Assembly: GCF_000016665.1 (NCBI RefSeq)
Contig: NC_009523.1
Span: 1,488,001-1,552,000 of the forward strand
Direction: 5' to 3'
Origin: Roseiflexus sp. RS-1
Lineage (GTDB): Bacteria > Chloroflexota > Chloroflexia > Chloroflexales > Roseiflexaceae
DNA: 64,000 bases
Shown here: piece by piece, positions 1,161-20,448 of the stretch
Layout: each line of letters begins with the position of its first letter
How positions within the stretch are numbered: position 1 is the stretch's first letter
Made by a program: the position numbers and the translations under genes
Notes under the pieces: generated by a model
Seen by the model: the letters and a program-made list of their open reading frames with translations, nothing else
Database searches by the model: none
What the model was told of the DNA's origin: nothing

Positions 1161-4100
1161 ATGAAACGGAGTTGGGTCACGCTGGAGGGCAATGAGGCTG
1201 CCGCCAGCATTGCGTACCGCCTGAGTGAAGTCATTGCTATTTATCCGATCACACCTTCCACGCCCATGGGTGAACTGGCGGATGCCTGGGCTGCCGCCGG
1301 AAAGCCAAATTTGTGGGGCACGACGCCCCTGGTCATCGAGATGCAGTCGGAAGGCGGCGCGGCCGGCGCCTGTCATGGAGCATTGCAACGCGGCGCGCTG
1401 ACGACGACCTTCACCGCATCGCAGGGATTGCTGTTAATGATCCCGAACATGTACAAAATCGCCGGTGAACTGACCTCAACCGTCTTTCACATTGCGGCGC
1501 GCTCGATTGCGACCCATGCGCTGTCGATCTTCGGCGATCATCAGGATGTGATGGCGACACGTCAGACGGGATGGGCGCTGCTGGCCTCCTCGTCGGTGCA
1601 GGAAGCGCACGATCTGGCGCTGGTGGCGCACGCGGCGACGCTCAAGGCGCGCGTGCCATTCCTCCACTTCTTCGACGGGTTCCGCACGTCGCACGAGATC
1701 AATAAGATCGAGCAACTGACGGATGACGACCTGCACGCAATGATTGACCCGGCGCTGATTGCGGCGCATCGTATGCGCGCCCTTACCCCTGATCAGCCGG
1801 TCATTCGCGGCACGGCGCAGAATCCCGATGTGTACTTCCAGGCGCGTGAGACGGTCAACCCCTTCTATGCAGCAACGCCGGGCATCGTTCAGGAAACGAT
1901 GGATCGGTTCGCACAGTTGACGGGACGCGCCTATCACCTGTTCGACTACACAGGCGCGCCGGATGCCGAGCGCGTGATTGTGATCATGGGTTCTGGTGCG
2001 GAAACTGCGCGCGAGACGGCGACGTTTCTGGCGGAACGCGGCGAGAAGGTCGGGGTTGTCTCCGTGCGTCTCTATCGTCCGTTTTCGGTGGCGCACTTCG
2101 TGGCGGCGTTGCCGACGACGGTGCAGCGCATTGCGGTGCTTGACCGCACGAAGGAGCCGGGCAGCAGCGGCGAGCCGCTCTACCTCGATGTTGTAACGGC
2201 AATGGCGGAGAGTGGTCGTCATCTGCCGGTAATCGGCGGCAGGTATGGTCTGGCATCCAAGGAGTTCACTCCCGCCATGGTGAAGGCGGTGTTCGATGAA
2301 CTGGCGAAGGATCAGCCGAAGAACCATTTCACGGTCGGCATCATCGACGATGTGAGCCACACCAGCCTGGATGTCGATCAGTCGTTCTCGATTGAGTCGC
2401 CGCGCACGGTGCGCTGTCTGTTCTACGGGTTGGGCGCTGATGGCACGGTTGGCGCCAATAAGAACTCGATCAAGATCATCGGCGAAGAAACCAACAACTA
2501 CGCGCAGGGGTACTTCGTCTACGACTCGAAGAAATCCGGTTCGATGACCGTGTCGCACCTGCGCTTCGGACCCGATCCGATCCGCGCGCCGTACCTGATC
2601 GAGCGGGCGAATTTCGTCGCCTGCCATCAGTTCTCCTTCCTCGAACGCATCGATGTGCTGAAAGCGGCTGAACCCGGCGCGGTCTTCCTGCTGAACAGCA
2701 TGTATGGACCGGACGAGGTCTGGTACCACCTGCCGCGCGAAGTGCAGGACGACATTGTGCGCAAGAAGTTGAAGTTCTATGTGATCGACGGTGACCGGGT
2801 GGCGAAAGAGAGCGGCATGGGGCGGCGCGTCAACACTGTGATGCAAACGGCATTCTTCGCCATTTCGGGCGTGCTGCCGCGTGAGGACGCGATTGCCGAG
2901 ATCAAGCGCAGCATTAAGAAGACCTATGGCAAACGCGGTGAGGCGGTGGTGCAGCAGAACTACCGCGCCGTCGATGCCGCGCTTGCACACCTGTACCAGG
3001 TGGATGTTGAAAAATTCGCCGGGTTCCGGTCGCCGTTCACCCGCCGACCGCCGGTGCCTGAACAGGCGCCAGAGTTCGTGAAAGAAGTGCTTGCTCCAAT
3101 GATCGCCTATGAGGGCGACTCGCTGCCGGTGAGCAAACTGCCGGTCGATGGCTCCTTCCCCACCGGCACGGCGGCGTGGGAAAAGCGAACAATCGCGCTG
3201 GAGGTGCCGGTCTGGGAACCCGACATCTGCATCCAGTGCGGCAAATGCGCCTACGTCTGCCCGCACGCAGTCATCCGCACGAAGGTGTACGAACCGGCGC
3301 TGCTCGAAGGTGCTCCCGAAACGTTCCTCAGCGCCGAAGCGCGCTTCAAGGAATTCCCCGGTTACAAATACACCCTGGCGATTTCGTCGGAAGACTGCAC
3401 CGGATGCGGGCTGTGCGTCGAGGTGTGTCCGGCGAAGGACAAGCGACAGGTCGGGCGTAAGGCGATCAACATGAAACCGCTGGTCGAGGTGCGTGAGCGT
3501 GAGGTGCGCAACTGGAATTTCTTCCTGAGCATCCCTGATGTGCCGCGCACATCGTTGCACGTCGGGTCAATCAAGAACTCGCAGTTGCTTCAACCGTTGT
3601 TTGAGTTCTCCGGCGCGTGCGCAGGGTGCGGCGAGACGCCGTATATCAAACTGCTGACGCAACTGTTCGGTGATCGCTTGCTGATAGCCAATGCGACTGG
3701 TTGCTCGTCGATCTACGGCGGCAACCTGCCGACGACGCCGTACACGAAGAATGCCGAAGGGCGTGGTCCTACATGGTGCAACTCGCTCTTTGAGGACAAT
3801 GCTGAGTTTGGTCTTGGCATGCGTCTGGCGCTCGACCAGCAGATCGAGCACGTGCGCGAACTGCTGCCGCTGTTTGCGCCGGTCGTCGGGCAGGACCTGG
3901 TCGATGCCCTGTTGAACGCCGATCAGAGCACCGAGGCAGGCATTGCCGCGCAGCGTGAGCGGGTCGAATTGCTGAAACAGCGTCTCCATACGCTGGATCG
4001 CAGCCAGTTCCCGGATGTTGTGGAGCGTGAGCACGAACTGCTCAGCCTGGCAGACGTCCTGGTGAAGAAGAGCGTCTGGATCGTTGGCGGCGATGGTTGG

Positions 4101-4739
4101 GCGTATGACATCGGCTACGGCGGACTCGACCATGTGCTGGCGTCGGGGTACAAGGTCAATGTCCTGGTGCTTGACACTGAAGTGTACTCCAACACGGGCG
4201 GGCAGGCGTCGAAGTCCACCCCGATCGGCGCGGTGGCGAAGTTTGCCGCAAAGGGCAAATCCTCGCCAAAGAAGGATCTCGGTCTGATCGCAATGGCATA
4301 CGGAAATATCTATGTGGCGCGGGTGGCAATGGGCGCCGATGACGTGCAGACGCTGCGCGCCTTCATGGAGGCTGAGGCGTATGATGGCCCATCGCTGATC
4401 ATCGCCTATTCGCACTGCATTGCTCATGGCATCGATATGCGCAAGGGTCTGGATCAGCAGAAACTGGCGGTTCAGACCGGCTACTGGCCACTGTACCGCT
4501 ACAATCCGAGTCTGGCAGCTGAAGGGAAGAATCCGCTGATTATCGACTCGAAAGATCCATCGCTGCCGCTTGAGAAGTTCATCTATAACGAGACTCGTTA
4601 TCGCATGCTGGTGCAGAGCGATCCAGAGCGTGCTGAGATGCTTCTCCATCAGGCGGAGGCGTCGGTTCGCGCGCGCTGGCAGCACTATAAGGAGTTGGCG
4701 GCGCTCAGTGAGGTGAGAGCGGAGCGCGACGGGCATTAG
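1161..4739 (+). CDS. nifJ: Pyruvate:ferredoxin (flavodoxin) oxidoreductase
   Basis: This 1192-residue single-chain enzyme has the usual NifJ length. It oxidatively decarboxylates pyruvate to acetyl-CoA and CO2 with reduction of ferredoxin, and can run in reverse for CO2 fixation. The order is PFOR N-terminal domains (GNEAAASIAYRLSEV... YPITPSTPMGE), then a two-cluster ferredoxin domain with CIQCGKCAYVC near residue 690 and CTGCGLCVEVC near 745, then the TPP domain. The TPP domain carries the extra-cluster cysteines GACAGCGETPY near 818, GDGWAYDIGYGG, and DTEVYSNTGGQASKSTP. All are intact. A GAGGAGG ribosome site precedes ATG 1161. It is monocistronic and the cytoplasmic location is expected. 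Confidence 0.97.
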   Translation: MKRSWVTLEGNEAAASIAYRLSEVIAIYPITPSTPMGELADAWAAAGKPNLWGTTPLVIEMQSEGGAAGACHGALQRGALTTTFTASQGLLLMIPNMYKIAGELTSTVFHIAARSIATHALSIFGDHQDVMATRQTGWALLASSSVQEAHDLALVAHAATLKARVPFLHFFDGFRTSHEINKIEQLTDDDLHAMIDPALIAAHRMRALTPDQPVIRGTAQNPDVYFQARETVNPFYAATPGIVQETMDRFAQLTGRAYHLFDYTGAPDAERVIVIMGSGAETARETATFLAERGEKVGVVSVRLYRPFSVAHFVAALPTTVQRIAVLDRTKEPGSSGEPLYLDVVTAMAESGRHLPVIGGRYGLASKEFTPAMVKAVFDELAKDQPKNHFTVGIIDDVSHTSLDVDQSFSIESPRTVRCLFYGLGADGTVGANKNSIKIIGEETNNYAQGYFVYDSKKSGSMTVSHLRFGPDPIRAPYLIERANFVACHQFSFLERIDVLKAAEPGAVFLLNSMYGPDEVWYHLPREVQDDIVRKKLKFYVIDGDRVAKESGMGRRVNTVMQTAFFAISGVLPREDAIAEIKRSIKKTYGKRGEAVVQQNYRAVDAALAHLYQVDVEKFAGFRSPFTRRPPVPEQAPEFVKEVLAPMIAYEGDSLPVSKLPVDGSFPTGTAAWEKRTIALEVPVWEPDICIQCGKCAYVCPHAVIRTKVYEPALLEGAPETFLSAEARFKEFPGYKYTLAISSEDCTGCGLCVEVCPAKDKRQVGRKAINMKPLVEVREREVRNWNFFLSIPDVPRTSLHVGSIKNSQLLQPLFEFSGACAGCGETPYIKLLTQLFGDRLLIANATGCSSIYGGNLPTTPYTKNAEGRGPTWCNSLFEDNAEFGLGMRLALDQQIEHVRELLPLFAPVVGQDLVDALLNADQSTEAGIAAQRERVELLKQRLHTLDRSQFPDVVEREHELLSLADVLVKKSVWIVGGDGWAYDIGYGGLDHVLASGYKVNVLVLDTEVYSNTGGQASKSTPIGAVAKFAAKGKSSPKKDLGLIAMAYGNIYVARVAMGADDVQTLRAFMEAEAYDGPSLIIAYSHCIAHGIDMRKGLDQQKLAVQTGYWPLYRYNPSLAAEGKNPLIIDSKDPSLPLEKFIYNETRYRMLVQSDPERAEMLLHQAEASVRARWQHYKELAALSEVRAERDGH

Positions 4740-13642: not shown

Positions 13643-14801
13643 ATGACCCGCCAGAGCGATTGTACCCTCTCCCCCGACCTGGTGCAGCTGATTGCCGACC
13701 AGGGATTGGACGCATTATCGGAACTGATACATATTGTCATCAACCATGCCATGCAAGCCGAACGCAGTCACTATCTCAACGCCGAAGTGCACGAACGCAC
13801 CGCTGAGCGGCGCGGCTATGCCAACGGCTCCAAACCCAAAACCGTGACCACCCGCATGGGCCAGGCAACCTTTGCCGTACCGCAGGTGCGCGACAGCAGT
13901 TTTTATCCCCAGGCGCTGGAGAAAGGGCTGCGCAGCGAGCGAGCGCTCACCCTGGCGCTCGCCGAAATGTACGTCCAGGGCGTCTCGACGCGCAAGGTGG
14001 CCGCGATCACCGCGCAGGTGTGCGGTCTCGAACTGACTGCGACCCAGGTCAGTCGCGCGGCGGCCCAGTTGGATGCCGCGCTGGAACAGCGGCGCACCCG
14101 TCCGCTGGCGGCCTGCCGCTATCTGTGGCTTGACGCGCGCTACGAGAAGGTGCGCATTGATGGGCAGGCGCGTGATGCCGCCGTCCTGATCGCCATGGGG
14201 CTGCGCGACGATGGCAAACGCGTCATTCTGGGCCTCTCGGTCGCGGTTGGTGAACACGAAGCGCATTGGCGCCAGTTGCTCCAGAGTCTGGTGCAGTGCG
14301 GCCTGACCGGTGTCCAGCTGATCGTCAGCGATGCCCATGAGGGACTGCAAGCGGCGCGCCGCGCGGTGTTTGGCGGCGCGCCCTGGCAGCGCTGCCAGTT
14401 CCATCTGCAACAGAACGCGCAGGCGTACGCGCCGCGGCAAGAACTGAAGGCCGCGCGGCAGCCGATATTCGCGCGATCGTCACCGCACCCAATCGCGCCG
14501 ACGCCGACAGCCTGCTGGCGCGTAAGTGCAGAAGTACGCCAAAACCGCATCCAAGCTGGCCACGTGGCTCGAAACGGCCATTCCGGAGGGCTTGACGGTG
14601 TTTAACCTGCCGGCGGCGCACCGCACGCGCCTGCGCACCGTGAACGCGCTGGAACGGCTGAACCAGGACATCCGCCGGCGCACCCGCGTGGTGGGCGTCT
14701 TTCCGAATGAAGCGTCCTGCCTGCGCCTGGTGACCGCGCTGGCCATGGAAACCAGCGACGAATGGGAGGCTGGCAAGGTCTATCTCTCGTTGACTGACTG
14801 A
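13643..14801 (+). pseudogene. IS256-family transposase, two frameshifts
   Basis: The first frame (13643 to about 14455) gives VQLIADQGLDALSELIHIVINHAMQAERSHYL, the first catalytic Asp in YLWLDARYEKVR, and VQLIVSDAHEGLQAAR with the second. A short middle frame gives AADIRAIVTAPNRADADSLLA (14455-14525). The last frame (from about 14528) gives VQKYAKTASKLATWLE ... LRTVNALERLNQDIRRRTRVVGVFPNEASCLRL, with the catalytic Glu. Two single-base deletions explain both shifts, one near 14455 and one near 14530. The start ATG 13643 has an AAAGGA site. Total coding length of about 385 residues fits IS256 transposases. Confidence 0.85.
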
Positions 14802-14926: not shown

Positions 14927-14948
14927 CATATTGACATTCTTCAATATG
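14927..14948. promoter_or_regulatory. ArsR operator 1
   Basis: Perfect inverted repeat CATATTGA-N6-TCAATATG. It overlaps the -35 box of the arsR promoter, so bound ArsR would block RNA polymerase. The same 8-6-8 design recurs at 15363-15384 before arsM. Confidence 0.8.
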
Positions 14949-14959
14949 AATGGTATACT
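14931..14959 (+). promoter_or_regulatory. Sigma-70-type promoter of arsR
   Basis: TTGACA (14931-14936) and TATACT (14954-14959) are separated by exactly 17 bases. Transcription should start near 14966, two bases before the ATG at 14968, so the mRNA is probably leaderless. Confidence 0.8.
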
Positions 14960-14967
14960 CCTGCGCG

Positions 14968-15345
14968 ATGGATCAAGCAATGCCACATCACGATAGCCTC
15001 GAACGCGAGCGCGGTACGCGCTGTTGCGCCGATCTTGTCGCTCCTCGGTTCAGCCCGGCTGAAGCGCAACGGTTGAGCGAGGACTTGCAGATCCTGGGGC
15101 ATCCGGTGCGTCTGCTGATACTCGATGTGCTGACGCGGCATTCCGGTCAGGTGTGTGTGTGTGACCTCGAAGCGGCAGTGCCGGTCAAGCAACCGACTGT
15201 CTCGCACCACCTGCGGTTGTTGCGCGAAGCGGGTCTGGTGGAGGCGGAGCGCCATGGTCCGTGGATGTACTACTTCATTTGCCGTGATGCGCTGGCGGCG
15301 TTGCGCACGCGCATGATGCGCGTGCTGGCAGTGCTCGAGGAGTGA
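14968..15345 (+). CDS. arsR: ArsR-family arsenic-responsive repressor
   Basis: The 125-residue protein has a winged helix-turn-helix (EDLQILGHPVRLLILDVL, KQPTVSHHLRLLREAGLVEAERHGPWMYYFI) and the arsenite-binding VCVCDLE motif at the start of the recognition region. An additional N-terminal Cys pair (TRCCADL) may contribute to metalloid binding. It should repress its own gene and arsM through the two identical operators and leave DNA on binding As(III). The start at ATG 14968 was chosen because the promoter lies immediately upstream; the frame stays open to 14950 but that would overlap the -10 box. arsM follows after 89 bases. Confidence 0.93.
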   Translation: MDQAMPHHDSLERERGTRCCADLVAPRFSPAEAQRLSEDLQILGHPVRLLILDVLTRHSGQVCVCDLEAAVPVKQPTVSHHLRLLREAGLVEAERHGPWMYYFICRDALAALRTRMMRVLAVLEE

Positions 15346-15362
15346 CTCTTTTTTTGCCCGAT

Positions 15363-15384
15363 CATATTGATGATCTTCAATATG
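15363..15384. promoter_or_regulatory. ArsR operator 2, upstream of arsM
   Basis: CATATTGA-N6-TCAATATG with arms identical to operator 1 but a different 6-base centre (TGATCT). It lies 50 bases before the arsM start and suggests that arsM has its own ArsR-controlled promoter in addition to readthrough from arsR. Confidence 0.78.
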
Positions 15385-15434
15385 ATGCATGGTGGGATGA
15401 ATTCGCGTATGTGCAATATGGAAGGAGTTGTTCG

Positions 15435-16283
15435 ATGTCCTACAAGCAGGCTTCCTCGGAAACCATCAAAGAACAGGTGCGTCGGCATTATGCGGAGCGC
15501 ATTCAATCCGGCTCGTGCTGCGGCTCTCCGTCTGGAGGCGGTGGCGACGCCGTCCCGACCGAGATCGCACTGTATGGCGAAGAAGTGATCGCCGCGCTGC
15601 CATCCGGTGTTGTAACCACATCGTTTGGGTGTGGCAATCCGGTTGCGCTTGCATCGCTGCGAGAAGGTGAAATCGTGCTCGATCTGGGGTCAGGCGGCGG
15701 TCTCGATGCACTGCTGGCTGCGCAACGTGTTGGGGTCGGAGGGTATGTGTACGGAGTCGATATGACCGACAATATGCTGGCAGTGGCCCGTCGCAATGCG
15801 GAAAAAGCCGGGGTTGCCAACGTCGAGTTCCTCAAGGGCGATATCGAGAACATCCCACTTCCTGCGAATATCATCGATGTGATTATCTCCAACTGTGTCA
15901 TCAATCTGACACCGGACAAGTCGCAGGCGTTGCACGAAGCGTTTCGAGTTCTCAAACCGGGCGGACGACTGGCAGTTTCCGATATTGTGATCGATGGCGA
16001 TCTGACAGGGTTTCCTGTCACTGAGGAACAGATCCGTGCTGCGCTCGACTGGACCGGGTGTATTGCCGGGGCGTTGACCATCGATGAGTACCGGGCATTG
16101 TTGACGGAAGCCGGCTTCACCGACATTGCCATTACGGTGCAGCATCGCTCCACGATCGACGACGTCGGCGCTATGCTCGCCGGAGCGCCTGGAGACCTGA
16201 ACGCGCTGCCGCCTGAGATGGTGCAGGGGCTGGTCGACTGTTTTACCAGCAGCATGATCGAGGCGCGCAAGCCGGGTGAGTGA
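15435..16283 (+). CDS. arsM: Arsenite S-adenosylmethionine methyltransferase
   Basis: The 282-residue protein converts As(III) to methylated arsenicals using SAM in the cytoplasm. The start ATG 15435 has a GGAAGGAG site. The SAM-binding motif is VLDLGSGGGLDALLAA, followed by VYGVDMTDNML and the acidic loop residues. Cysteines expected to bind As(III) are present: TSFGCGNPV, ISNCVINL and TGCIAGAL, corresponding to the three conserved Cys of algal ArsM. An N-terminal SCCGSP pair is also present. It is controlled by ArsR operator 2. Confidence 0.95.
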   Translation: MSYKQASSETIKEQVRRHYAERIQSGSCCGSPSGGGGDAVPTEIALYGEEVIAALPSGVVTTSFGCGNPVALASLREGEIVLDLGSGGGLDALLAAQRVGVGGYVYGVDMTDNMLAVARRNAEKAGVANVEFLKGDIENIPLPANIIDVIISNCVINLTPDKSQALHEAFRVLKPGGRLAVSDIVIDGDLTGFPVTEEQIRAALDWTGCIAGALTIDEYRALLTEAGFTDIAITVQHRSTIDDVGAMLAGAPGDLNALPPEMVQGLVDCFTSSMIEARKPGE

Positions 16284-16349: not shown

Positions 16350-17648
16350 CTAATCCCCGCCATCGCCAAATGCCGCCACCACCGGGGCGCCCGCCTCACG
16401 GCGCGGCAGCGCCACCGAAATGATCCCGGCTGCCAGCACGAAGGCGACGGCGAACCAGAGACAACCGACCAGCCCCCAGATCTGATACACTGCGCCGGAG
16501 AGCACGGTTCCCGCCAGGCGTCCCATAGCATTCGCCATGTAGTAGAACCCGACCCCCATCGCGGCTTTGTCGCTCTCGGTGTAGGCGAGAATGAGATAGG
16601 AGTGCACCGACGAATTCATGGCGAAGATGATGCCGAACGCAATCAATCCGGCGACGACGACCAGGGTCGGCTCGATGCCGCCGGCAAGCGCCACTGCAAT
16701 GCCAGCCGGGAACGCTGCCAGAACGAATGCCAGCCACATCGCCGTCTGACCGTCCGGCACGCTGCCATGCGCGATACCCGCCTCATCGACCTGCATCCGG
16801 CGCTTGATAACCTCTGGCGCCGATGCCTGAACAAACCCGTAGCCGATGACCCAGATCGCCAGGAACCCGCCAACCTGCCAGAAGTTCCAGCCAAGAACAG
16901 TGTAAAGAAAGACCGGCAGCCCAACCACGAACCAGACGTCGCGTGAAGCAAAGAGGAATACCCGCGCGGCTGCCAGAATGTTAACGGCACGGTTGTGCGA
17001 AAACATCTGGCGGAACTTCGCCTTCTTGTCGGCTTTGCCGAGGTCGCCGCGCATCAGGATAGCGGTGACGACCAGCGCCGTAATGACCAGCCCCGCCAGA
17101 ATGAAGATCGCGGTGCGAAACCCAACCAGGAAAAGGAGCAATCCGCCGACAAAAAAGCCGACGCCTTTCAGCGCGTTTTTCGAGCCGGTCAGTATCGCCA
17201 CCCACTTGAAAAGGGTTGATTGCGCATCCTCGGCGACGATCAGTTTGATGGCGCTCTTGCTACTCATCTTGGTCAGGTCTTTGGCGATACCGGAGAGCGC
17301 CTGCGCCGCCATAACATACGGAACGGTCAGCCATACAGCGTCGGGGAGCGCCAGCATGCTCAGGGCAATGAACTGAACGCCGAGACCAGAAAAGAGGGTG
17401 CTCTTCAGCCCCATGCGCGCAGCCAGGTAGCCGCCGAACAGGTTGGTGATGACGCCAAAAATCTCGTAGAACAGGAACAGCATCGCCACCTGAAAGGGCG
17501 AATAGCCGAGCTGGTAGAAGTAGAACAGCACCAGCATACGGAGCGCGCCATCGGTGATCGTATCCGCCCAGTACGCGCCCGTCACCAGAATGTAGTTGCG
17601 CAGATCGCCCGATGCTGTCCGTGGTGCTGCAATATCAGCGGTTGCCAC
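16350..17648 (-). CDS. arsJ: ArsJ-type MFS efflux permease for 1-arseno-3-phosphoglycerate
   Basis: The 432-residue, 12-helix major facilitator protein starts most plausibly at GTG 17648, five bases after AAGGAGG; the frame is open to 17678 but the upstream codons come from the GTTGAAC repeat. The N-terminus (LRNYILVTGAYWADTITDGALRMLVLFYFYQLGYSPFQVAMLFLFYEIFGV) matches ArsJ. It exports the unstable 1-arseno-3-phosphoglycerate made by the GAPDH encoded just upstream, giving arsenate resistance. The GAPDH-ArsJ pairing is characteristic and makes the call strong. It is the last gene of the minus-strand ars operon. Confidence 0.92.
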   Translation of the reverse strand: MATADIAAPRTASGDLRNYILVTGAYWADTITDGALRMLVLFYFYQLGYSPFQVAMLFLFYEIFGVITNLFGGYLAARMGLKSTLFSGLGVQFIALSMLALPDAVWLTVPYVMAAQALSGIAKDLTKMSSKSAIKLIVAEDAQSTLFKWVAILTGSKNALKGVGFFVGGLLLFLVGFRTAIFILAGLVITALVVTAILMRGDLGKADKKAKFRQMFSHNRAVNILAAARVFLFASRDVWFVVGLPVFLYTVLGWNFWQVGGFLAIWVIGYGFVQASAPEVIKRRMQVDEAGIAHGSVPDGQTAMWLAFVLAAFPAGIAVALAGGIEPTLVVVAGLIAFGIIFAMNSSVHSYLILAYTESDKAAMGVGFYYMANAMGRLAGTVLSGAVYQIWGLVGCLWFAVAFVLAAGIISVALPRREAGAPVVAAFGDGGD

Positions 17649-17665
17649 GGTTCCTCCTTGTTGCG

Positions 17666-17772
17666 GTTCAACGTTCAACGTTCAACGTTCAACGTTCAAC
17701 GCTACAACGTTCAACCTTCAACCTTCAACCTTCCACGCCCAACCTTTAACCTTCAACGTTCAACCTTCAACC
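17666..17772. repeat. GTTGAAC-type heptamer array in the gapdh-arsJ gap
   Basis: Tandem units of TTCAACG or TTCAACC (GTTGAAC on the other strand) fill the whole space between the GAPDH stop and the arsJ leader. Units near the arsJ end are identical; those near gapdh are degenerate. The same heptamer occurs at 50521-50553. Confidence 0.9.
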
Positions 17773-18783
17773 TCATTCCAGCGCCAGCGCCACCTTCCGC
17801 GCCAGTTCGACATACCGGTTCGCGTAGCCCCATTCGTTGTCGTACCAGGCGAAAATCTTCACCTGCGTGCCATTCGTCACCATGGTTGAAGGACCGTCGA
17901 TGATCGCCGAGCGCGGGTCGTCCTTGAAATCAACCGAGACGAGCGGGCGATGCTCATACCCCAGGATGCCTGCCAGCGGTCCTTCGGCTGCAGCGCGGAG
18001 CAGCGCATTGACCTCGGTAATCGTGGTTGGACGCCGCACCTCAAAGACGCAGTCGGTGAGCGAGGCATTAAACAGCGGCACGCGCACGGCAATGCCGTCG
18101 AGTTTGCCCTGCAATTCCGGAAAGATCAGCCCAATGGCGGTTGCTGAACCGGTCGTCGTCGGGATCAGCGAGAGACCAGTGGCGCGCGCCCGGCGCAGAT
18201 CCTTATGGGGTGTATCGAGAATGCTCTGCGTATTGGTGGCATCGTGGATCGTCGTGATCATACCGTGAACGATGCCGATCCCCTCGTGGATAACCTTGAC
18301 AACCGGCGCCAGGCAGTTGGTGGTGCATGAGGCAGCGGTCAGGAGATGGTGCTCGTTGGGGTTGTACCAGTGGTCGTTTACTCCCATCACGACATTGAGC
18401 GCCCCATCTTTGACCGGCGCAGCAACAATGACCTTCCGCACGCCCGCGTTGAAGTAGGGTTGCAACGTCTCGCGGGTGCGGAACTTGCCGGTGGCTTCGA
18501 GCACAATATCGACGCCAGCAGCGCGCCAGGGGACTGCTCCCGGATCTTTGATGCTACTATACCCGATAGGAATGCCATCGATGATCAGTTGACCATTCTC
18601 GGTCTGAATATCACGTTGCCAGCGCCCGTGAACCGAGTCGAACTCCAGCAGGTGCGCTGCAGTTTCAACCGGTCCGCCAATCTCGTTGATGTGGGCAACG
18701 GTTATATCGGTCCAGCCCCACATCGCGCGCAGCGCCAGGCGCCCGATCCGACCGAATCCATTAATACCGATTCGCACAGGCAT
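17773..18783 (-). CDS. ArsJ-associated glyceraldehyde-3-phosphate dehydrogenase
   Basis: The 336-residue enzyme has the NAD-binding start [18 protein letters not shown], the catalytic Cys and neighbours in [19 protein letters not shown], and the C-terminal [16 protein letters not shown]. Such ars-linked GAPDHs use arsenate instead of phosphate and form 1-arseno-3-phosphoglycerate, which ArsJ exports. Its place between arsR-arsC and arsJ, on one strand with short gaps, supports this rather than a glycolytic role. A GGAGTGGAG site precedes the ATG. The motif set is complete. Confidence 0.92.
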
Positions 18784-18811: not shown

Positions 18812-19588
18812 TTATCGCATCACCGCCTGTTCACGTTGTTCACGCTCAAGCAGGATCTGGAGGTAGCGAATGCGCGTTGCCAGGATGGTTGCTGCCTGAT
18901 GGAACGCGCGCCGCTTTTCCGCTTCATCTTCGACCGCTGCCGGATCTGGAATGCTCCAGTGAATGATTTCCTTCGCTTCTGGAAACACGGGACACGTCTC
19001 GCGCGCCCGGTCGCACACGGTGATCACCACATCGAAGTGTTGACCGAGAAATTCGTTGAAGTGTTTTGATCGCTGGTTGCGAATGTCAACATTCATTCCG
19101 TCCATCGTCTCGATAGCCAGCGGATGCACCTCGTCCGGCTGGCTTCCGGCGCTGAATGCTTCGATCGTGCCGTGACTGAAGGTGCGCAACAACCCTTCCG
19201 CCATCTGTGAGCGCGCGCTGTTGTGGGTGCAGAGGAACAGGACGCGCGGTTTTGCACGCTGCACCATCTCCTCTTCCACACCGGTGATCGCCTGCGCCAG
19301 CGCCGGATGGATCAACCGACCGGCGGTGAGATACCGCTGCTGCATCTGCTCCAGATCGAGATGGTAGTACATCTCGCCAGGGTGGACATCACTGGCGCGT
19401 GAGGCGACCAGTCCGGCGGATTGCAGGTCGGCAAGAGCAGCGGCAACGGTCTCCGGGGGTTGTTTGATTGCAGTGCTCAGCCCGATCAGACGTTCGTCGC
19501 TCCGCGCCAGCCTGGCAACCACAGCAAGGCGCGTGGCGTCGCCGAGCATGCGGAAGAAGGCGGCAGCTTCGTTCAGGGTGGCGTTCAT
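18812..19588 (-). CDS. ArsR-ArsC fusion: HTH regulator plus thioredoxin-type arsenate reductase (1)
   Basis: The 258-residue fusion has an ArsR-like winged helix at residues 1-85 ([27 protein letters not shown]) and a low-molecular-weight phosphatase-type arsenate reductase from about 110. The reductase P-loop is [14 protein letters not shown]. The redox pair in [10 protein letters not shown] has the seven-residue spacing of the thioredoxin-coupled ArsC family. The HTH part has no CVCDL motif, so it may sense by another site or act through its partner. It lies 28 bases upstream of gapdh and 21 bases downstream of the second fusion gene. Confidence 0.88.
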
Positions 19589-19606
19589 GCTCCTCTCCTC
19601 TCGATC

Positions 19607-19625
19607 ATATCAGTTTGTATTGATA
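19607..19625. promoter_or_regulatory. Possible ArsR-type operator between the two fusion genes
   Basis: ATATCA, eight bases, then TGATA form an imperfect inverted repeat in the 21-base gap and the end of the upstream gene. It resembles the TATCAAT-type palindrome at 20431-20448. The short arms make this a weak call. Confidence 0.35.
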
Positions 19626-20374
19626 GAAACCACCGACAACAGGTCGAGCAACCCCGCGACGCGCATGCGCAATTCATCACGGGCGGCGCGGAATGCAGCC
19701 AGACGTTCAGCCTCACCCCCTGATGCCATGACCGGATCGGGGATGCTCCAGTGCAGCTGGAATGGCGCGTGGAGCGTGGCTGCGCACTCTTCACGCGCCA
19801 GATCACATACGGTTACCACGATTGCAGGCGCAGGCGCAGCGACATCGGCAAGCCCCTTGGCCTGTTGATACCCGATGTCGATGCCTGCCTCCGCCATCAC
19901 CTGCACTGCCAGCGGTTGCACCGTGGCGGGAAAGGTTCCGGCGCTGCGCGCGATCACGCGCCCGCCGCTCAGGTGCCGCAGCCACGCTTCGGCAATCTGT
20001 GAGCGCGCGCTGTTGTGGGTGCAGACGAACAGCACCGGACCGATGATGACCGCTGGTGGAGCGGTATGTCCAAGCGCCAGCGCACTGCCGACCGACTGCC
20101 ACTGCTGCTGCAACGCAGCAAGATCGAGTGCGTAGTACAGCACCCGTCCATCGGCGTCACTCCGGTGGGTGCGCACCAGGCGCGCCTGACGGAGAATGCC
20201 AAGATGGTAGGAAACCAGGTTCTGCGGCAGATCGAGCCGCTCGCAGAGCTCGCCTACCTGCCGGTCGCTCCAGCGCAGTTCCCCGATCAGACGCCAGCGC
20301 GTCTCATCGCTGAGGAGTCGCAGCGCTTCCGGCATTGGCGGCGCTGATGGGTGGTGATGGTTGATGTCTGTCAT
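19610..20374 (-). CDS. ArsR-ArsC fusion: HTH regulator plus thioredoxin-type arsenate reductase (2)
   Basis: The 254-residue paralogue has an ArsR-type winged helix (EALRLLSDETRWRLIGELRWSDRQVGELCERL, QNLVSYHLGILRQARLVRTH) and an arsenate reductase domain from about residue 112. The reductase P-loop is [16 protein letters not shown] and the redox pair is VCDLAREEC, again with seven-residue spacing. The two fusions are diverged from each other, so this is not a recent duplication. It is the first gene of the four-gene minus-strand ars operon, with a palindrome upstream at 20431-20448 as likely operator. Confidence 0.88.
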   Translation of the reverse strand: MTDINHHHPSAPPMPEALRLLSDETRWRLIGELRWSDRQVGELCERLDLPQNLVSYHLGILRQARLVRTHRSDADGRVLYYALDLAALQQQWQSVGSALALGHTAPPAVIIGPVLFVCTHNSARSQIAEAWLRHLSGGRVIARSAGTFPATVQPLAVQVMAEAGIDIGYQQAKGLADVAAPAPAIVVTVCDLAREECAATLHAPFQLHWSIPDPVMASGGEAERLAAFRAARDELRMRVAGLLDLLSVVSINTN

Positions 20375-20430
20375 TTCCGGCGCCTGTGTGTTTCCCTGCC
20401 GGGAATGAGTATAGCAGAGAACGAGGAAAA

Positions 20431-20448
20431 TATCAATATGAATTGATA
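20431..20448. promoter_or_regulatory. Probable operator of the minus-strand ars operon
   Basis: TATCAAT-ATGA-ATTGATA is a perfect 7-4-7 inverted repeat lying about 57 bases upstream of the first fusion gene's start at 20374. The motif differs from the arsR/arsM operators, so a different regulator, perhaps the fusion protein's own HTH, probably binds it. Confidence 0.65.

Follow-up and report, generated by a model that had tools for sequence, protein, structure and literature searches.

Proteins that join an ArsR-type DNA-binding domain to an arsenate reductase (ArsC) raise the question of whether a single polypeptide could both sense and reduce arsenate, and two of them side by side raise the further question of whether they do the same work. 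Such a pair lies in a 64,000-nucleotide stretch (the window, whose positions are used below; bases 1,488,001-1,552,000) of the genome of Roseiflexus sp. RS-1 (5,801,598 bases, single contig). RS-1 has been reported, together with ArsJ, from Yellowstone mats rich in arsenic (PMC13171826, 2026). ArsR-ArsC fusions as a kind are already known; what is new is the tandem arrangement, along with the operators and the specialisation of the pair.

Two fusion proteins in an arsenic gene cluster

On the minus strand of the window, four genes follow one another in the order A (20374-19610), B (19588-18812), GAPDH (18783-17773) and ArsJ (17678-16350). Protein A (254 aa) consists of an ArsR-type winged helix-turn-helix (wHTH) domain at about residues 16-99 and a thioredoxin-type ArsC domain at about residues 112-254, while protein B (258 aa) has a degenerate wHTH at about residues 5-98 and an ArsC domain at about residues 113-258. 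In A, matches to the Pfam families HTH_5 (E=2.4e-9) and LMWPc (E=2.7e-13) and to TIGR02691 arsC_pI258 (E=1.5e-27) were accompanied by a match over the cutoff of NF033788 (56.4 bits versus 55). The ArsC half of B matched LMWPc (E=3.6e-16) and TIGR02691 (E=8.6e-27); the Pfam search of B detected no HTH, and NF033788 matched it only below the cutoff (32.8 bits, 4.3e-8; cutoff 55). B aligns along its full length with canonical fusions, HTH part included, and its AlphaFold model (mean pLDDT 92.2; 89.0 for A) has the helix-helix-helix-helix-strand-strand-helix layout of a winged helix. The hits of B in Foldseek and VIA were mostly ArsC and phosphatase folds; these searches barely probed the HTH part and have no bearing on its fold. 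Both proteins missed the TIGR02691 equivalog cutoff of 174.3 (96.4 and 93.9 bits) and are relatives rather than members of that family.

The open reading frames, domain matches, alignment and AlphaFold layout thus bear out the initial annotation, which had read the two genes as consecutive ArsR-ArsC fusions. It had also called them diverged, with intact catalytic cysteines. The identity between A and B is 36%, and both ArsC halves carry the CX5R P-loop and the equivalents of C82 and C89, that is, a full thioredoxin-type triad (C118/C190/C197 in A, C120/C192/C199 in B). Since its ArsC half is intact, A may be an enzyme as well. The other Roseiflexus genomes examined also have the tandem pair (the G002 contig includes just the tail of A), as does a second genus (G009), which argues against an artefact of open reading frame calling.

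By its gene content, which the initial annotation had overlooked, the A/B operon is a predicted GAPDH-ArsJ arsenate-efflux operon. The two downstream genes form an adjacent pair over the NCBIfam cutoffs: an ArsJ-associated glyceraldehyde-3-phosphate dehydrogenase (17773-18783; NF033735, 557 bits, cutoff 450) and ArsJ, a 1-arseno-3-phosphoglycerate efflux MFS transporter (16350-17678; NF033734, 584 bits, cutoff 400). GAPDH-ArsJ adjoins a fusion, in several arrangements, in 17 of the 37 genomes examined, which supports a functional tie of the fusions to arsenate rather than to arsenite export. The gap between the arsJ and GAPDH genes (~17680-17775) is filled by short repeats (translation FNVQRSTFNVQR...), and its length varies among Roseiflexus genomes.

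Facing this operon on the plus strand is an arsR-arsM unit, composed of a stand-alone ArsR with the canonical CVC As(III) motif (14950-15345; profile match and sequence) and the arsenite methyltransferase ArsM (15342-16283; NF008823, 293 bits, cutoff 263). In the region 14927-14970, its promoter, TTGACA-N17-TATACT, runs past the ATG at 14950, and the ArsR start is therefore probably the ATG at 14968 rather than the annotated one, leaving a nearly leaderless message. Directly upstream, a mutator-type transposase frame in two frame-shifted pieces (320 aa and 91 aa; 13643-14801) looks like a decayed insertion element, an identity assigned by eye. The genome search recovered no other thioredoxin-type or glutaredoxin-type ArsC in RS-1. 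An Acr3-like exporter, named by its sequence (L025), is present in the genome and unlinked to the cluster.

An ArsR operator overlaps the promoter of A

Upstream of A, the initial annotation had pointed to a palindrome at 20431-20448. Its core (O1, ATCAATATGAATTGAT, ATCAA-TATGAA-TTGAT; 20432-20447) is a perfect match to the published ArsR core operator consensus ATCAAN6TTGAT (PMC9137774), which was footprinted in Synechocystis (PMC4585019). The right half of O1 carries the -35 element of a sigma-70-like promoter, TTGATA-N17-TATACT (20408-20436, minus strand), which scores 10/12. The half-sites of O1 and both promoter elements (-35 and -10) do not vary among six genomes from two genera, whereas the spacer and the flanking sequence have drifted. 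The palindrome is thus real and phylogenetically footprinted.

Separate operators had been suggested for the two fusions, and we did find two predicted copies rather than one. The second (O2, ATCAGTTTGTATTGAT; 19609-19624) matches the motif with one mismatch, lies over the stop codon of A, 20 nt before B and just ahead of its ribosome-binding region, and is perfect in G009. It is conserved in seven genomes, although this conservation may be partly coding, given that O2 overlaps the last codons of A.

The motif recurs elsewhere. In the 150 nt upstream of 79 full fusions, ATCAAN6TTGAT occurs with at most one mismatch in 40 cases and perfectly in 25; for 79 such regions of first-order random sequence, the mean is 0.56 (0.03 perfect). 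The fusions come from several phyla, some from the same genome twice and many of them related, which makes the count descriptive, yet it exceeds the expectation by a very wide margin. Genome-wide, RS-1 has four further perfect O1-type matches, all of them away from recognisable arsenic genes, and no O1-type site within one mismatch near the Acr3 gene. The palindrome of the arsR-arsM unit is another one, ATATTGA-N6-TCAATAT (14928-14947); it overlaps the unit's own -35 (TTGACA) and is also found in L031 and L063. A single regulon with arsR-arsM is thus not favoured, and the difference between the palindromes suggests that the cluster has two separately wired regulators.

Only A keeps the canonical recognition helix

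A combines two ArsR/SmtB features, a conserved recognition helix (PQNLVSYHL, canonical) and a nearby ATCAAN6TTGAT operator, whereas B, with PPETVAAAL at this position, lacks the recognition helix. The SYH-type core is kept in 65 of 78 fusions and is degenerate in 13, all of them B-type. All 12 B proteins from genomes with A (including G002, with its partial A) have a degenerate helix, compared with none of the 12 from genomes without A; the loss may be a single event on the tree, which makes this association a pattern and not a statistically independent test. The thirteenth degenerate helix, in L076 (~3187-3936; Chloroflexaceae SM1_1_0), is the only one outside the A-containing set, and its genome was left out of the A-presence count. 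This fusion is followed by a separate ArsC, with Acr3 nearby.

The picture of two equivalent regulators is therefore not supported, because B is without the SYHL residues wherever A coexists. Judged from these residues, B is more likely a reductase, or a non-reading heterodimer partner, than a regulator equivalent to A. Pairwise dN/dS values against RS-1 were 0.02-0.10 for the HTH of A, tighter than its ArsC domain (0.11-0.18), and 0.06-0.22 for the HTH of B, which is looser than that of A but still constrained. Given this purifying selection and the position of O2 before B, B may still bind DNA.

In the ArsC-domain phylogeny, A falls in a Chloroflexales lineage (support 100/100) and B groups with fusions from actinobacteria and proteobacteria (100/95); free-standing ArsCs branch between the two. 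These two strongly supported lineages rule out a recent tandem duplication. The tree suggests two independent fusion origins, but we do not claim them, as a single clade was not rejected (AU p=0.315).

The cysteine pattern points to the ArsC half as the probable sensor

Across 78 distinct fusions, the three triad cysteines are conserved in 78, 78 and 74 proteins, respectively. In the HTH part, by contrast, 69 of the 78 have no cysteine or one, no column has a cysteine in more than 15, and the Cys-x-Cys As(III) site is absent from all 78. A has a single HTH cysteine (C44) and B none, so neither has the cysteines of an As(III)-sensing type, in contrast to the classical CVC motif of the neighbouring stand-alone ArsR. 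Since the triad is conserved and the HTH has neither a conserved cysteine nor Cys-x-Cys, the ArsC half is probably the sensor; arsenate binding, redox state and the product arsenite all fit the sequence as the signal. The same cysteine-poor HTH would be expected if an oxyanion site lay in another part of the protein, or if the ArsC triad alone bound As(III). The triad is also kept in fusions with a separate ArsC downstream in the operon (L037, L047, L076, L080-L082), which suggests a use beyond supplying reductase. The initial annotation had proposed that such proteins could tie transcription to enzyme state, and this pattern of cysteines is what such a link would need.

Several fusions depart from the full triad. 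The A-type fusion L034 (1416-2168 in G008) lacks the third cysteine (CDRAREERS) and is a natural candidate for a non-catalytic sensor; the B of G008 keeps its third cysteine, as would be expected if A regulates and B is the enzyme. In L110 and L127 (Phytohabitans; match at ~4001-4700), alanine replaces the third cysteine and the upstream operator is near-perfect or perfect.

Proposed mechanism and alternatives

From these features we infer, with a probability of about 0.5, that A is an arsenate-responsive autorepressor that senses through its ArsC half, and that B, with its degenerate HTH, is mainly a reductase. The repressor part of this reading is based on O1, which is perfect, overlaps the promoter, is conserved while its spacer drifts, and recurs upstream of fusions. 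An A homodimer bound to O1 would block the -35 element of the promoter; with less certainty, A would also occupy O2 before B. Arsenate would enter the CX5R pocket of the ArsC half of A, where C118 would attack it. The HTH dimer would then be altered by the subsequent reactions of C190 and C197, or by As(III) retained on the triad, and would let go of the DNA, switching on A, B, GAPDH and ArsJ. GAPDH would convert arsenate to 1-arseno-3-phosphoglycerate for export by ArsJ, while B would act mainly as the arsenate reductase, supplying arsenite both to Acr3, encoded away from the cluster, and to ArsM beside it. With Acr3, ArsM and GAPDH-ArsJ all present, arsenate could thus leave as 1-arseno-3-phosphoglycerate, or B (or A) could reduce it for Acr3 or ArsM. 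A point against the autorepressor comes from the Chloroflexus-type A homologs (L036, L039, L043, L053-L062), which keep the SYHL helix and mostly have CRANSARS as P-loop but lack ATCAAN6TTGAT; a search for another conserved palindrome in these homologs found none.

The fusion could instead be a matter of physical economy, in which an HTH repressor is freed by arsenite that the attached ArsC makes and perhaps holds, As(III) being the true inducer. Both domains are intact, the operator is the one that is standard for ArsR proteins sensing As(III), and a crystal structure of the pI258 ArsC with arsenite exists (1lju). However, none of the 78 fusions has a CxC or a conserved cysteine in its HTH, where the neighbouring ArsR has CVC, and the four fusions without the third triad cysteine retain the first two, and we regard arsenite as an unlikely, if serious, candidate for the inducer.

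The remaining alternatives concern the part played by B. If A and B formed an obligate heterodimer, only A would read DNA and B would supply dimerisation and a sensory or catalytic site. This would account for the constant adjacency of the two genes in Roseiflexus and G009 and for an HTH fold in B that is kept under purifying selection despite its lost recognition residues. It is nevertheless improbable: Oscillochloris-type and other genomes have the two genes in divergent orientation or on separate contigs, A or B occurs without the other in many genomes, and O1 is a symmetric palindrome that suits a homodimer. Still less credible, to the point of being very unlikely, is that both are bifunctional repressor-reductases, with A on O1 and B on O2 through an altered recognition helix. 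O2 does lie directly ahead of B and is conserved, as is the HTH of B within the genus, but the O2 motif is the same as that of O1, and B has changed from SYH to AAA-type residues with A unchanged; moreover, B homologs that keep SYHL also carry the ATCAAN6TTGAT motif.

Significance and comparison with known systems

More broadly, we tentatively propose, at somewhat less than even odds, that such fusions are one-component arsenate sensors found across phyla, in which ArsC reads As(V), and that in Chloroflexales two fusion lineages have split into a DNA-reading A and a DNA-blind reductase B. If true, an enzyme domain would serve as ligand reader, possibly providing a part for an As(V)-specific biosensor, and the A/B pair may show how regulator and enzyme specialise after both were bifunctional.

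Our scan found fusions in Chloroflexota (including Kouleothrix, Oscillochloris and Ktedonobacter), Actinomycetota and Alphaproteobacteria (Parvibaculum, Caulobacteraceae). A search of the literature did not turn up an experimentally characterised ArsR-ArsC fusion among the papers covered. The ArsRC2 protein of Microbacterium A33 is reportedly a negative regulator. Fusions of this kind (ArsRC) have been noted in Leptospirillum ferriphilum, Microbacterium, Sinorhizobium and Actinobacteria (PMC6205960, PMC4443643, PMC6514093), with two clusters of them in the Actinobacteria (PMC6514093). They share with A and B the two-domain architecture, the thioredoxin-type ArsC half and an ars operon context. 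However, they are reported as one fusion per operon, whereas the GAPDH-ArsJ operon of Roseiflexus has a tandem of fusions from two ancient lineages, and the HTH of one of them is degenerate.

Stand-alone thioredoxin-dependent ArsCs (S. aureus pI258 and B. subtilis, 1ljl and 1jl3; D. indicus ArsC2, 8p6m) share the fold (Z ~20-22, rmsd 1.1-1.6 over ~130 residues; Z ~20 for B versus the pI258 ArsC) and the cysteine triad, but they lack an HTH. Cg_ArsC1' of Corynebacterium glutamicum (3t38), matched by both Foldseek and VIA, is a Trx-dependent ArsC with an extra N-terminal domain, although this region is shorter than in the Roseiflexus fusions. Canonical ArsR/SmtB repressors share the wHTH and the ATCAAN6TTGAT operator; the fusions differ from them in an HTH without an As(III) cysteine site and in the additional catalytic domain.

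A parallel in operon content is the var operon of Vibrio cholerae (ArsR, VarG GAPDH, VarH and ArsJ), in which an ArsR-family repressor likewise heads a GAPDH-ArsJ arsenate operon; its authors suggest that this ArsR senses As(V) but call for further work (PMC9601151). That ArsR is described without an ArsC half, and As(V) is not detoxified by reduction in that cell (PMC9601151). Roseiflexus, unlike V. cholerae, combines ArsC-bearing regulators with Acr3 and ArsM. For the question of how arsenate-specific ArsJ operons recognise arsenate and not arsenite, a predicted repressor in which only the cysteines of an arsenate-reducing active site are conserved, together with its identified operator, offers a directly testable answer.
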